From positions 1 through 64,000 of the forward strand of contig WRLF01000003.1 of assembly GCA_009777735.1 (NCBI GenBank): DNA of 64,000 nucleotides. The letters are read 5' to 3'. Below are positions 46,354-54,644 of this stretch, piece after piece. Position numbers and translations under genes: made by a program. Origin of the DNA: Treponema sp. (GTDB taxonomy: Bacteria > Spirochaetota > Spirochaetia > Treponematales > Breznakiellaceae). Every line of letters starts with the position of its first letter. Position 1 is the first letter of the stretch. The notes beneath the pieces are model-generated. The model ran no database searches. It saw only the letters and a list, made by a program, of their open reading frames with translations, and was not told where the DNA came from.

Positions 46354-48321
46354 ATGATGTTATTATTTCTTCGCATTTTACTTATAGCATCAATGTTTAT
46401 TGCTCTTTACATGATGTCTGTTACACTAAGACGATGCCGAAGTGAAAAACGCTACGGGTTTATTTACTGTTGCGCCCTTTCTTTTATTTATACACTTGGT
46501 TACTTTATCGAAATAACCTGCGGAAATCTTGAAGTTGGAATAATCGCCGTAAAAATACAATACGCCAGTTCCAGCTTTTTGACACCGGTATTCTTTTTCT
46601 TTATAGCGGAATATTGCGATATTAGCCTGTCTAAAAAATATTATCAGATTCCAATGCTGGTTATTCCGGTATTATTTTATTTATTGGTTCTGACATTGGA
46701 ACATCATACATTGTTATATTCCCGGTATGATTATGATGCCGGGAGAGATATACCGGGTATAGAAAAAACACCCGGCACTCTTTATTTTGTCCAAACATTT
46801 TATCATATACTTTATATGGTTATTATTTGTACGGTTCTGGTTCGCAATTTAATGAAAAAGAATCAAAGGCATCGTCTTGGATTAATCCTGCTCATGATCA
46901 GCGCGGTAGCTCCTCTCATTGGCAATCTAACTTATATTACGCTGACGTTTTTTAGCGACAGCAGCTTTGGGCAGATTAATTATACCGCATTTTTAATAGT
47001 AATCAGCAATTTAATATTTTTCTACAATGTTGTCCGTAATGATATGTTTGACCTTGCTCCAACAGCCTATGCGGTTACTTTGAATCTGATAAGGGATATT
47101 TTCATTTTTATTGATCAAAATATGGTTTATAGAGGATCAAACAATAAAGCTTCGGAATTGTTCCCCGTTTTATCTGAAAAATTTAAGGGAACTTCCATTT
47201 TTCAAATTGAAACATGGCCGAATGAACTTAGACTTGAAGAAAAAGATCTGAACGAAATATATATTAAAGATTCAATGCATGAAATTGAGTTTACCCTGGA
47301 TCATAAGCCCGGAAAAAATTATTCAAGTTGGTTAAACCGCGTTGTTTCTAAATCGGGGACAACTCTGGGTTGGATAATACTTATTCAGGATGTTACAAAA
47401 ACTGTAAAAATGACAAAGGAGCTTAAATATTTTAATGATCAGCTTCACAGGGCATTTTCTATATATCTATCGGAAGATGTGGTAAATGAAATTATTGACG
47501 ATCCTGCAAAACTCCAGTTAGGCGGCGTAAAACGCCACATGACGGCAATGTTTACCGATATAACGAATTTCACAAAAATATCAGAGGAATTGTCGCCCGA
47601 ACAACTGGTAGAAATGCTCAATCATTACCTTTCTTCAATGAGCAATGTAATTCTGGATCAAAAGGGAACTATTGATAAATACGTAGGAGATGCGATACTC
47701 GCCTTTTTTGGAGCTCCCGCAAAACTGCCGGATCATGCTGTACGGACTTGTACTGCGGCAATACTCATGAAACGGCTGGAAACAGAAATGAATAAACTTC
47801 TTAAAGAAAAAAATCTATGTCCCATGCCTGTTATTACACGCATTGGAATCAATACCGATTATATGGTAGTTGGAAACATGGGAACGCAAAAGAAAATGAA
47901 TTACACAGTCATTGGCGATGCGGTTAATTTAGCGTCAAGACTGGAAGGGGTAAACAAGCAATACGGAACTTCAATTATTGCATCTGAAAACACAGTAAAA
48001 GAAACAGGCGATAAATTTCTTTCAAGGCGGCTTGGCTGGATAAGGGTAGTTGGAATCAGCAAGCCGGTGCGTATTTATGAGATACTTGACTTAACGGCGG
48101 ATGCCAATCCGTCTTTGCATAAACTTACCGATCTTTTTCATAATGCCCTTGACGTTTTTGAGCTGCAGCAATGGAAAAATGCAGAACATGCGTTCAATTT
48201 AGTACTGGAACAATTTCCCGATGATAATCCGTCAAAATTATACCAAAAATACTGCAAACATTATTATCAAAATCCGCCGCCAAATAATTGGAACGGTGTG
48301 ATTGACATAAAAGAAAAATAA
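46354..48321 (+). CDS. Membrane-bound class III adenylate cyclase with 7TM sensor
   Basis: Makes cAMP from ATP in response to an unknown signal. Residues about 1-230 hold seven to eight membrane segments of the 7TM histidine-kinase sensor type, followed by a PAS-like region (FIFIDQNMVYRGSNNKASEL). The cyclase domain runs from about 385 to 580. Metal-binding Asp402 (FTDITNFT) and Asp446 (DKYVGDAI), Lys442 for adenine, and Asp522, Asn525 and Arg529 (VIGDAVNLASRLE) are all present, indicating an active ATP-specific enzyme. A helical tail (NAEHAFNLVLEQFPDDNPS) resembles one TPR unit. AAAGGAG precedes the ATG. Confidence 0.9.
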   Translation: MMLLFLRILLIASMFIALYMMSVTLRRCRSEKRYGFIYCCALSFIYTLGYFIEITCGNLEVGIIAVKIQYASSSFLTPVFFFFIAEYCDISLSKKYYQIPMLVIPVLFYLLVLTLEHHTLLYSRYDYDAGRDIPGIEKTPGTLYFVQTFYHILYMVIICTVLVRNLMKKNQRHRLGLILLMISAVAPLIGNLTYITLTFFSDSSFGQINYTAFLIVISNLIFFYNVVRNDMFDLAPTAYAVTLNLIRDIFIFIDQNMVYRGSNNKASELFPVLSEKFKGTSIFQIETWPNELRLEEKDLNEIYIKDSMHEIEFTLDHKPGKNYSSWLNRVVSKSGTTLGWIILIQDVTKTVKMTKELKYFNDQLHRAFSIYLSEDVVNEIIDDPAKLQLGGVKRHMTAMFTDITNFTKISEELSPEQLVEMLNHYLSSMSNVILDQKGTIDKYVGDAILAFFGAPAKLPDHAVRTCTAAILMKRLETEMNKLLKEKNLCPMPVITRIGINTDYMVVGNMGTQKKMNYTVIGDAVNLASRLEGVNKQYGTSIIASENTVKETGDKFLSRRLGWIRVVGISKPVRIYEILDLTADANPSLHKLTDLFHNALDVFELQQWKNAEHAFNLVLEQFPDDNPSKLYQKYCKHYYQNPPPNNWNGVIDIKEK

Positions 48322-51186: not shown

Positions 51187-52200
51187 ATGAACGTATTGAT
51201 TATCGGTGGTGCCGGGTATATAGGCAGCCATGTGGCAAAGGAATTTCTTGAACGGGGATGCTGCGTCACAGTGTTCGATAACCTTTCCAGCGGCTTGCGT
51301 GAAAACCTTGATTCCTTGTCTGCGTTCGCCAAAGGCAGATTTGCGTTTACTTACGGAGACATCCTTGATTATCCTGTCCTTGCAGAGACAATGAAGGGCG
51401 GAATGCAAAACGCACCTTTTGATGCTCTCGTGCATCTTGCCGCTTTCAAGGCAGCCGGGGAATCCATGCTGAAACCGGAAAAATATTCCCGCAACAATAT
51501 CACCGGAACACTAAACATCCTCAATGCCGCAGCGGAAACCGGTATAAATAATATTGTGTTTTCATCCAGCGCCGCAGTGTACGGTGAACCTGTATATCTG
51601 CCCATTGACGAAAAACACCCAACCAATCCGGAAAATTACTACGGCTTTACGAAGCTGGAAATTGAACATTTTTTGGGTTGGTACGAAAAGCTCAGGGGCA
51701 TACGCCACGCCAGCCTGCGCTATTTCAATGCTGCCGGTTATGATGTGCAGGGGTGTATCAAAGGGCTTGAGCAGAACCCGGCAAACCTGCTGCCCGTTAT
51801 AATGGAAGTTGCCTGCGGCATGAGGGCAGAACTGCAAATTTTTGGAAATGACTATGATACACATGACGGAACGTGCATCCGGGATTACATCCATGTCACA
51901 GACCTTGCTGCCGGCCATGCCGCCGCGCTGGATTATATCATCAATAATAAAAAAAGCCTCATTGTAAACCTTGGCAGCGAGACAGGGAGTTCGGTGACTG
52001 AAGTTGTCGAAGCGGCCCGGCGGGTAACCGGTAAAACCATCCCCGCTAAAATTACCGGCAGACGAGCCGGCGATCCGGCAAAACTCACTGCGTCATCCGC
52101 CCTTGCGCGTGAACTCCTTGGCTGGGAGCCCCGGCACTCAGATATGGAAACGCTTATAAAAACAAGCTGGGAAGTGTACAAATTAAAAGGTAAGAGATAA
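51187..52200 (+). CDS. galE: UDP-glucose 4-epimerase
   Basis: Interconverts UDP-glucose and UDP-galactose with NAD bound. The 337-aa short-chain dehydrogenase-type protein has the dinucleotide motif IIGGAGYIGSHVAKEF, catalytic Ser in FSSSAAVYGE and the YxxxK pair in NYYGFTKLEIE, plus CIRDYIHVTDLAAGH. The 337-aa length is standard. M20 peptidase gene follows after 13 bases. Confidence 0.95.
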   Translation: MNVLIIGGAGYIGSHVAKEFLERGCCVTVFDNLSSGLRENLDSLSAFAKGRFAFTYGDILDYPVLAETMKGGMQNAPFDALVHLAAFKAAGESMLKPEKYSRNNITGTLNILNAAAETGINNIVFSSSAAVYGEPVYLPIDEKHPTNPENYYGFTKLEIEHFLGWYEKLRGIRHASLRYFNAAGYDVQGCIKGLEQNPANLLPVIMEVACGMRAELQIFGNDYDTHDGTCIRDYIHVTDLAAGHAAALDYIINNKKSLIVNLGSETGSSVTEVVEAARRVTGKTIPAKITGRRAGDPAKLTASSALARELLGWEPRHSDMETLIKTSWEVYKLKGKR

Positions 52201-52213
52201 AAAAAAGGGGTAT

Positions 52214-53458
52214 ATGAAAGAGAAACTTTTTGCGTGGATTGATGAGGCGCTTCCTCTGGCAGTAGAACTGGAAACAGAGCTGACGAAACGGCCGGCAGTT
52301 GCCCCCGATTCTGAAGGCGAAGGCGAATTGGATAAATGTGTTTTTCTTGAAGGTTGGTTGAAATCTCAGGGCATTACCCGACTGGAACGTTACGATGCGC
52401 CGGACGAGCGCGCGAAAGGAGGGGTCAGGCCAAACCTCATTGCGACAATACCTGGCGAGAATGAAAACAATGGCTGCCTCTGGATAATCAGCCACCTTGA
52501 CGTGGTGCCGCCCGGCGAGGCATCACAATGGAATAGCGATCCCTGGACAGCAGTTGAAGCCTTTGACGAGCCGGGACACAGGCTCATTGGCAGGGGAGTA
52601 GAGGATAACCAGCAAGGGCTGGTGTCTTCGGTGCTGGCAGCGCTTGCTTTTGTCAGGTTGAGATTGCAGCCCCGCCGGACGGTAAAGCTGCTGTTTGCCG
52701 CTGATGAAGAAATGGGCAGCAAGTACGGCATGGGCTGGCTGCTGGAAAACCACAGCGGCCTGTTTCACAAAAATGACATTGCGCTTATCCCCGATTCAGG
52801 TGATTCTAAAGGTGAAACCATTGAAATTGCCGAAAAAAATTTAATCTGGGTGCGTTTTGTGACGAAAGGGACACAAACCCATGGTTCCAGGCCGGATCAG
52901 GGGGCAAATGCCCACCTTGCAGGAGCCGATCTTGCCCTGCGGCTCCATTACGGGCTTTCCGAAAAATTTTCCGGCCGCGACAGGCTATTCGATCCGGATT
53001 ATTCCACTTTTCAACCCACTAAAAAAGAAGCAAATGTTCCCAATATCAACACCATTCCCGGTGAAGATGTTTTTTGCATGGATATGCGGATTCTCCCCCG
53101 TTACCCTGTAAAGGCAGTACTTGATGAAATTGACCGGATAAAAGCAGAAATTGCCGCAAAACACAGGGTTACCATCGATTACAGTATAATCCAGTCAAGC
53201 GAGTCTCCTGCCACCCCGGCACAGGCTCCGCTTGTGTTGTCCCTTTCAAATGCTATTGGTGAAATATATAATGTACAGACACGCCCAGTCGGCGTAGGCG
53301 GCGGCACTGTGGCGGCGTACCTTCGCAGGATAGGTATTGACTGTGCGGTTTGGGCACGATTGAGTGAAAGCGCCCATGAGCCCAACGAATTTGTTCTGCT
53401 GAAAAATATCCTTGGTGACGCGAAAATAATGGCATTACTGGCGTTAGATAGTCTATAA
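52214..53458 (+). CDS. M20-family metallopeptidase/deacylase
   Basis: A 414-aa dinuclear zinc hydrolase. Metal ligands lie in ISHLDVVPPG, GRGVEDNQQG and FAADEEMGSKYG, with IPDSGD and the dimerisation-domain histidine in TKGTQTHGSRPDQGANAH. GGGTVAAYLRRIGID and LSESAHEPNEFVLL complete the M20 pattern. Amino-acyl dipeptide or acylated amino acid substrates are typical of the family; the exact one is not determinable. AAAAGGGG precedes the ATG. Confidence 0.88.
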   Translation: MKEKLFAWIDEALPLAVELETELTKRPAVAPDSEGEGELDKCVFLEGWLKSQGITRLERYDAPDERAKGGVRPNLIATIPGENENNGCLWIISHLDVVPPGEASQWNSDPWTAVEAFDEPGHRLIGRGVEDNQQGLVSSVLAALAFVRLRLQPRRTVKLLFAADEEMGSKYGMGWLLENHSGLFHKNDIALIPDSGDSKGETIEIAEKNLIWVRFVTKGTQTHGSRPDQGANAHLAGADLALRLHYGLSEKFSGRDRLFDPDYSTFQPTKKEANVPNINTIPGEDVFCMDMRILPRYPVKAVLDEIDRIKAEIAAKHRVTIDYSIIQSSESPATPAQAPLVLSLSNAIGEIYNVQTRPVGVGGGTVAAYLRRIGIDCAVWARLSESAHEPNEFVLLKNILGDAKIMALLALDSL

Positions 53459-53479: not shown

Positions 53480-54211
53480 ATGGATTTATTTGCGGAAGAA
53501 CAGCAAATATATGATGATGCCAAAAATCACACAATGGATGTCCATAACGGCGCTGTTTTTGAATTTGAGAAATATATAACCCTTGCGAACGACTATGGCA
53601 AACTCCTTAAACAGCTTCGCCGTGCAACCCGTCTTGCCGACAGAACCACATTGGATTTATTTGAAACGAATCAGGATTTGGCCAGCAAGGTTCATTACGA
53701 TACATTAACCGGCATTTATAACCGGCGTTATTTGGATGACAGCCTGGGGCGGATTGTAAAATCGTTGTCCCGCTCCAATGGAATGTTAAGCATAATGATG
53801 GTGGATATTGATTTTTTTAAAAAATATAATGATACCTACGGTCATAGTGCCGGTGATATCTGCCTGAGAGAAGTAGCTGAAATACTCTCAAGGAGCATAA
53901 CAAGGGAAGTTGATTTTGTAGCACGGTATGGCGGGGAAGAATTTATTATTGTATTACCCCACACCGATGAACACGGCTCGCATATTATGGCAAGCAGGCT
54001 GCTTAAAAACATTATAGAACGCGGCATACCCCATGAACAAAATGAAGTGGCAGGTTGTATAACCGTTTCAATTGGAGTTACAACAGTCAAGGTGCGTTAT
54101 AATCATAAAGTAGAGCACTACGTTAATCATGCGGACAAAGCATTGTACATGTCAAAGCAAAATGGGCGTAACAGGTATACGTTTCTTAAATTTACGGAAC
54201 CTGACGAATGA
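53480..54211 (+). CDS. Diguanylate cyclase (SiaD-like)
   Basis: Makes cyclic di-GMP from GTP. The 243-aa cytosolic protein has an N-terminal coiled-coil stretch (about 1-70) and a GGDEF domain with HYDTLTGIYNRRYLDDSL, Asp metal site MMVDIDFFKKYNDTYGH and an active GGEEF at 151-155. The inhibitory I-site RxxD is REVD, five residues upstream, so product feedback is expected. Coiled-coil plus GGDEF and the SiaC gene 28 bases downstream match the SiaD/SiaC arrangement. AAGGAG precedes the ATG. Confidence 0.9.
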   Translation: MDLFAEEQQIYDDAKNHTMDVHNGAVFEFEKYITLANDYGKLLKQLRRATRLADRTTLDLFETNQDLASKVHYDTLTGIYNRRYLDDSLGRIVKSLSRSNGMLSIMMVDIDFFKKYNDTYGHSAGDICLREVAEILSRSITREVDFVARYGGEEFIIVLPHTDEHGSHIMASRLLKNIIERGIPHEQNEVAGCITVSIGVTTVKVRYNHKVEHYVNHADKALYMSKQNGRNRYTFLKFTEPDE

Positions 54212-54239
54212 TCACTTACTGCTATAGGAAAAACAGGTA

Positions 54240-54620
54240 ATGGCATTTTTAATGGAAAGAGAAAAAACAGCTTCAACGCCGTATGTATTAATTGATGAAA
54301 AAAATGGATACATAAAGCTTGAGGGGCGGTGTTTTCATGAAAAAATCGTGGAGTTTTTTTCCGAAATCTTCGATTGGCTGAATGCCTATCTCGCATCAGA
54401 TTTCAGCAGCCTTACTTTTGACTGCGCCATTAATTATTTCAATAGCTCCACCACAAAACTTCTGTTCAATATGCTTTTGAAAATGGATAAATACGCCAAT
54501 GCTCAAAACAGAATCATGGTAAACTGGATTACTACCGAGGATAATCATATCATGGTTGAATGCGGCAGGGATTTTCAGGAAGAAGTAAGCAATCTGGAAT
54601 TTAACCTGGTAATAAATTAA
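54240..54620 (+). CDS. SiaC-family regulatory phosphoprotein (DUF1987)
   Basis: A 126-aa protein with the family motif INYFNSSTTKLLFNMLLKMD (about 64-83). In SiaC of Pseudomonas the equivalent Thr/Ser is phosphorylated and the dephosphorylated form activates the diguanylate cyclase SiaD. Here the candidate residues are Ser69, Ser70, Thr71 and Thr72. The N-terminal STPYVLIDEKNGYIKLEGRC is also typical. No kinase or phosphatase (SiaB/SiaA) is seen nearby. Confidence 0.87.
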   Translation: MAFLMEREKTASTPYVLIDEKNGYIKLEGRCFHEKIVEFFSEIFDWLNAYLASDFSSLTFDCAINYFNSSTTKLLFNMLLKMDKYANAQNRIMVNWITTEDNHIMVECGRDFQEEVSNLEFNLVIN

Positions 54621-54644
54621 CCCCCGAATGCAGCTCCCCGGGAG

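Follow-up and report, generated by a model that had tools for sequence, protein, structure and literature searches.

How can a SiaD-SiaC pair work when the two proteins that switch SiaC are missing? In Pseudomonas aeruginosa, unphosphorylated SiaC activates the diguanylate cyclase SiaD, phosphorylation of SiaC by SiaB leads to shut-down and SiaA reverses this modification (PMC8457831, PMC7647112). The 64-kb stretch of Treponema DNA that was analysed here (the window) carries a siaD-like and a siaC-family gene as intact open reading frames on the same strand (Table 1). An earlier reading of the letters alone (the sequence-only reading) had proposed that the pair may be a stripped-down c-di-GMP switch with a distant or different kinase.

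Table 1. Features of the siaDC locus in the window and SiaD stalk-kinase fusions in other loci
Feature	Coordinates	Strand	Details
siaD-like diguanylate cyclase	53480..54211	+	243 aa; GGEEF, residues 151-155; I-site REVD, residues 142-145
Stalk helix of SiaD (residues 29-62), containing a single SiaC-docking motif, LRRATRLADRTT	53564..53665	+	From stalk alignments and AlphaFold model
siaD-siaC gap, 28 bases	54212..54239	+	Slot of siaB in congeners
siaC-family regulatory phosphoprotein	54240..54620	+	126 aa; YFNSSTTK from residue 66; Ser69 corresponds to P. aeruginosa Thr68
galE (51187-52200), then M20 peptidase (52214-53458)	51187..53458	+	Pair conserved in genus
Terminator-like hairpin, boundary of siaC and convergent hpf-rpoN	54621..54644	-	Such sites are no commoner in real than in shuffled sequence
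Stalk-kinase fusions	L122:2866-5022, L131:1533-3521, L135:978-2711		Hybrid histidine kinases; stalk E 3e-28 to 2e-19
Stalk-kinase fusion	L042:1683-2573		LytS-type kinase; stalk E 2e-15

The window SiaC matched PF09345 over positions 2-118 of 120 (E 3.6e-35, 120.7 bits vs a cut-off of 24.5), and with NF038265, the equivalog model for P. aeruginosa-type SiaC, it scored 73.1 bits, which does not reach the cut-off of 150. Judged by these scores, it is a member of the same family and not the Pseudomonas equivalog. The eight best PDB matches of its AlphaFold model (mean pLDDT 92.5) were all P. aeruginosa SiaC chains (6k4f, 6kko, 6kkp, 7e6g) with a TM of about 0.9. In the fold search, E-values below 1e-6 were obtained for SiaC crystal structures alone and the next match had an E of 0.02. 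In the P. aeruginosa complex, SiaC places T68 between the two stalk helices of SiaD, where it forms bonds with S82 and Q86; N67 and S69 also touch the stalk, and phosphorylation of T68 abolishes SiaC-SiaD binding (PMC8457831). The contact positions N67-T68-S69 are occupied by Asn68-Ser69-Ser70 in the window protein. Here, we found serine as the phosphorylatable residue in all aligned relatives and threonine in P. aeruginosa SiaC alone. Since SiaD binding depends on these very residues (PMC8457831), retention of YFNSS is uninformative on this modification, and the intact motif does not imply that SiaC is phosphorylated. SiaC proteins from operons that lack siaD (L041, L039, L067, L069, L071) often carry YFSSST instead of YFNSST, so that serine replaces the asparagine that contacts the SiaD stalk.

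The GGDEF domain of the cyclase was recognized by PF00990 (E 4e-49). Its best NCBIfam model was that of SiaD (NF038266), the match beginning at residue 29 and thus including part of the stalk, and the score of 172.5 bits lies below the equivalog cut-off of 290. In the functional sense of a docking stalk combined with an active GGDEF domain, the protein is a SiaD-type cyclase, the catalytic motif being intact by sequence. A stalk model matched it with an E of 2e-32. The AlphaFold model consists of N-terminal helices (residues 3-22 and 29-62, with low confidence around residues 51-70) and the GGDEF domain, and its structural matches were WspR and SiaD (7e6g). When the docking motif LRRATRLADRTT was aligned with P. 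aeruginosa LEKVARISDRYQ (PDB 7e6g) and with other SiaD stalks, D54 (P. aeruginosa D83) was invariant, and S82 and Q86 corresponded to A53 and T57, replacements that are typical of the clade. The P. aeruginosa stalk carries two similar motifs and forms a SiaD2-SiaC4 complex (PMC8457831). In the window protein one motif is recognizable and a second one was not recognizable in its clade; the more distant L035 and L038 gave two weak stalk matches each. From the single motif a 2:2 SiaD-SiaC complex is therefore predicted. Compared with P. aeruginosa SiaABCD (6k4f, 6kko, 7e6g), the window shares the SiaC fold, the docking-stalk cyclase with GGEEF and I-site and the adjacency of the genes, but it lacks siaA and siaB, has one recognizable docking motif instead of two, serine for threonine at the phosphorylation site and Ala/Thr for S82/Q86 of SiaD. 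The sequence-only reading had described a GGDEF enzyme with intact active site and I-site 28 bases before a SiaC-family gene with YFNSSTTK, beside rpoN-hpf, and the motifs, the reading frames, the PF09345 match and a convergent hpf-rpoN pair just 3' of siaC bear this description out.

siaA and siaB are gone from the locus. The gap between siaD and siaC contains a ribosome-binding-like AGGAAAAACAGG; neither this gap nor the surroundings of the locus hold a siaB remnant, and neither a gene nor a remnant of siaA or siaB was found anywhere in the 64-kb window. The corresponding draft genome (G000; 2.69 Mb in 39 contigs, 83.07% complete, 1.54% contaminated) contains one siaC gene and no second one was found. 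PF19788, NF038262 and a genus-built SiaB alignment gave no SiaB match in this 83%-complete assembly. The NF038262 search performs in congeners, where it detected SiaB in 11 of 40 genus genomes, and the congener SiaBs match PF19788, the family of SiaB, which is distinct from HATPase_c_2. With a SiaA alignment (A4) no SiaA orthologue was detected in the same 83%-complete genome: its PP2C proteins scored at most 70 bits compared with several hundred bits for true SiaAs, although some of these high-scoring loci were sources of the alignment itself. The two strongest A4 matches, a chemotaxis receptor (C1) and a hybrid histidine kinase (C2), are not phosphatases; they matched in the sensor region only and were rejected as SiaA. 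PF07228 identified three PP2C proteins of the generic SpoIIE type, all with Cache and HAMP domains. The sequence-only reading had called SiaA and SiaB absent and had named a genome search for SiaB-like kinases and PP2C phosphatases among the ways to check its proposal. The absence holds for the window and, with respect to SiaB and a SiaA orthologue, for the 83%-complete genome, in which the counter-case it had named, standard siaAB genes controlling a different siaC, was not found either.

Among 40 genomes of the genus, SiaC was present in 12 and SiaB in 11, and for 197 genomes of the order the corresponding numbers were 10 and 9. In both sets, G000 was the sole SiaC-bearer without SiaB. siaB adjoins siaC in all 11 other SiaC-bearing genus genomes, and the usual order is siaA-siaD-siaB-siaC. 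Full-length relatives of the window SiaD, stalk included, occur in five other genus genomes, all inside Sia operons. Three of them (G214, G222, G009) show the usual order, G200 has the same order with siaD only 132 bases from the contig end, so that siaA is out of view, and G116 carries siaA-siaD-siaC-siaB-siaC. At the level of loci, we read siaA-siaD-siaB-siaC in L065, L066 and L040 and siaD-siaB-siaC in L068. The operon was mostly the same in 38 loci of a contig collection (Treponema, Fibrobacterota, several Clostridia and a Deltaproteobacterium), which were retrieved with the genus SiaC alignment; the single window SiaC as query gave no matches in this collection. Among the fetched stretches, which come from several phyla and include some places twice, 57 of 58 contain SiaB, and the exception (L144) is a contig-end fragment. 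The Sia operon is spread over several phyla, mostly in bacteria that, judged by bin names, apparently live in termite guts. L107-L143 carry closely similar siaA-siaD-siaB-siaC operons, and the SiaD tree mixes phyla here (L114 with L108 and L125, support 97/93), which may reflect transfer. The full operons of Treponema, Fibrobacterota and Clostridia (L065, L066, L107, L108 and others) have the same stalk and the same serine as the window, and the closest are 52-57% (SiaD) and 65-69% (SiaC) identical to it. These operons carry siaA and siaB, whereas the window lacks both and has its pair behind galE-M20.

Only 21 bases separate the end of the M20 gene from the start of siaD, and for this reason siaD is likely to be co-transcribed with galE-M20. 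A conserved linkage of siaDC to rpoN-hpf or to galE-M20 was rejected, since siaDC was never found behind galE-M20 in congeners, and the rpoN-hpf neighbourhood looks incidental. galE-M20 is kept elsewhere in the genus without siaDC, and in G214 and G222, which are among the closest genomes by M20 identity (80%), the Sia operon lies on contigs other than galE-M20. Because the galE-M20 pair is conserved, is followed by siaDC only in the window and is separate from the operon in G214 and G222, siaD and siaC have either moved here or are what was left by a rearrangement that involved the loss of siaA and siaB. The G+C content is low (siaD 0.41, siaC 0.36, window 0.48), but this sign of horizontal origin is weakened by some neighbouring genes that are equally low. 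The placement of the window in the SiaD and SiaD+SiaC trees is not firm and does not decide on inter-phylum transfer. The window also encodes (46354-48321) a 655-aa protein that combines an N-terminal 7TM histidine-kinase sensor region with an adenylate/guanylate cyclase domain.

To the reading we prefer we give about an even chance: a SiaABCD operon has been reduced by loss of siaA and siaB, and the SiaD and SiaC that were kept form a pair in which SiaC acts as constitutive unphosphorylated co-activator. The constant neighbourhood of siaB and siaC in the other SiaC-bearing genus genomes and the failure of three SiaB models in G000 argue for the loss. Highly conserved positions are largely kept, with departures at 1 of 38 in SiaC (a unique E110R) and at 6 of 81 in SiaD, the latter being within the range of the other SiaDs in the set. 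The behaviour of the P. aeruginosa system, in which SiaD is activated by unphosphorylated SiaC (PMC8457831) and aggregation is strong once SiaB is lost (PMC7647112), is consistent with this reading. Without SiaB, SiaC would stay unphosphorylated, would bind the single SiaD stalk motif and would hold SiaD in an active dimer. The output of SiaD would be set by gene expression, in which siaD is probably coupled to galE-M20, and by feedback of c-di-GMP on the I-site. Because SiaA and SiaB are missing, such a constitutive SiaC-SiaD complex would be the simplest outcome; since their genes are gone from the locus and were not found in the draft genome, SiaD probably has its activator bound at all times or is otherwise controlled. 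Against this stands the replacement of both T68-bonding residues in the docking motif, although these replacements are clade-typical. In the SiaC tree, the window protein falls within the clade of siaD-containing operons (support 96/95), but its end branch (0.32) is somewhat long, the longest of the group, with 0.17-0.21 for single-copy neighbours. The long branch and E110R are compatible with altered or relaxed constraint.

The main caveat for the reduced operon is the completeness of 83%, since separate siaAB genes could be unsequenced. The 17% of the genome that the assembly lacks may contain another Sia locus, complete with siaA and siaB, that controls the window SiaC in trans; several separate Sia loci, two or three per genome, do occur in G009 and G200. 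We consider such a locus rather unlikely, since a single locus is the rule in SiaC-bearing genomes of the genus, siaB always lies beside siaC there and no second siaC was found in G000.

Alternatively, a replacement kinase and phosphatase might act on SiaC, which would correspond to the distant or different kinase of the sequence-only reading. Two of the three PP2C proteins of G000, encoded on contigs C9 and C20, also carry an RsbW-like HATPase_c_2 domain, so that each unites the two activities required to act on SiaC; no gene for a STAS antagonist adjoins that of the C9 protein, and the SiaC fold is similar to that of anti-sigma-factor antagonists (PMC7647112). On the other hand, a double-STAS protein encoded beside the C20 gene already serves as partner of the C20 protein, SiaB belongs to a different family and no genetic link ties either candidate to siaC. 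The stripped-down switch is well supported by the congener operons, which show the missing genes, and by the failure to find SiaB or a SiaA orthologue in the 83%-complete genome; a substitute kinase, although possible, is unlikely. For the more specific version, in which one bifunctional sensor-PP2C-ATPase membrane protein elsewhere replaces SiaA and SiaB in a rewired switch, we see a slim chance.

It is quite unlikely that siaDC is a decaying remnant of a broken operon heading to loss. Such decay exists in the genus, since the congener G116, which also has an intact Sia operon, carries a solitary SiaC gene that is interrupted by four in-frame stops (L018, G116:C24:15137-15391), and the long SiaC branch fits this scenario. 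However, both reading frames are intact, catalytic, I-site and docking residues are kept, and in comparison with each of the relatives non-synonymous change is well below synonymous change, a result whose weight is limited by saturation of synonymous sites in most pairs and by the uncertain date of the siaA/siaB loss. The genus has many GGDEF genes, but an ordinary one standing by chance beside an unrelated SiaC gene is excluded for practical purposes because the best NCBIfam model is SiaD and the SiaC fold matches SiaC structures, and the stalk match, the congener operons and the restriction of full-length alignments to Sia-linked cyclases contradict it as well.

The locus comparison shows that the docking stalk occurs not only on cyclases but also on histidine kinases. 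With a stalk model built from SiaD alignment A7, the stalk was recognized at the start of four non-GGDEF proteins, all in loci with siaA, siaB and siaC (Table 1). The hybrid fusions combine HisKA-HATPase-REC with either another REC or an Hpt domain, and no SiaD gene was present in the fetched stretches of L122, L131 and L042. These data suggest that SiaC is able to control kinases as well as cyclases, and it may dock on exchangeable outputs. A limited literature search found no published account of a fusion between SiaD stalk and histidine kinase, and these fusions are possibly worth more than the main finding. HsbA-HsbD and BgrV-BgrR (PMC8457831) follow the same logic, in that a diguanylate cyclase has an antagonist-like docking partner, but they belong to the STAS family and are likened here by description, not by sequence. 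Should the Treponema pair prove functional in the absence of SiaA and SiaB, it would represent a partner switch that nature has reduced to a two-component core, and it would allow a direct test of SiaC as an obligate structural activator of SiaD, and not only a phospho-relay, and of whether one docking motif suffices.
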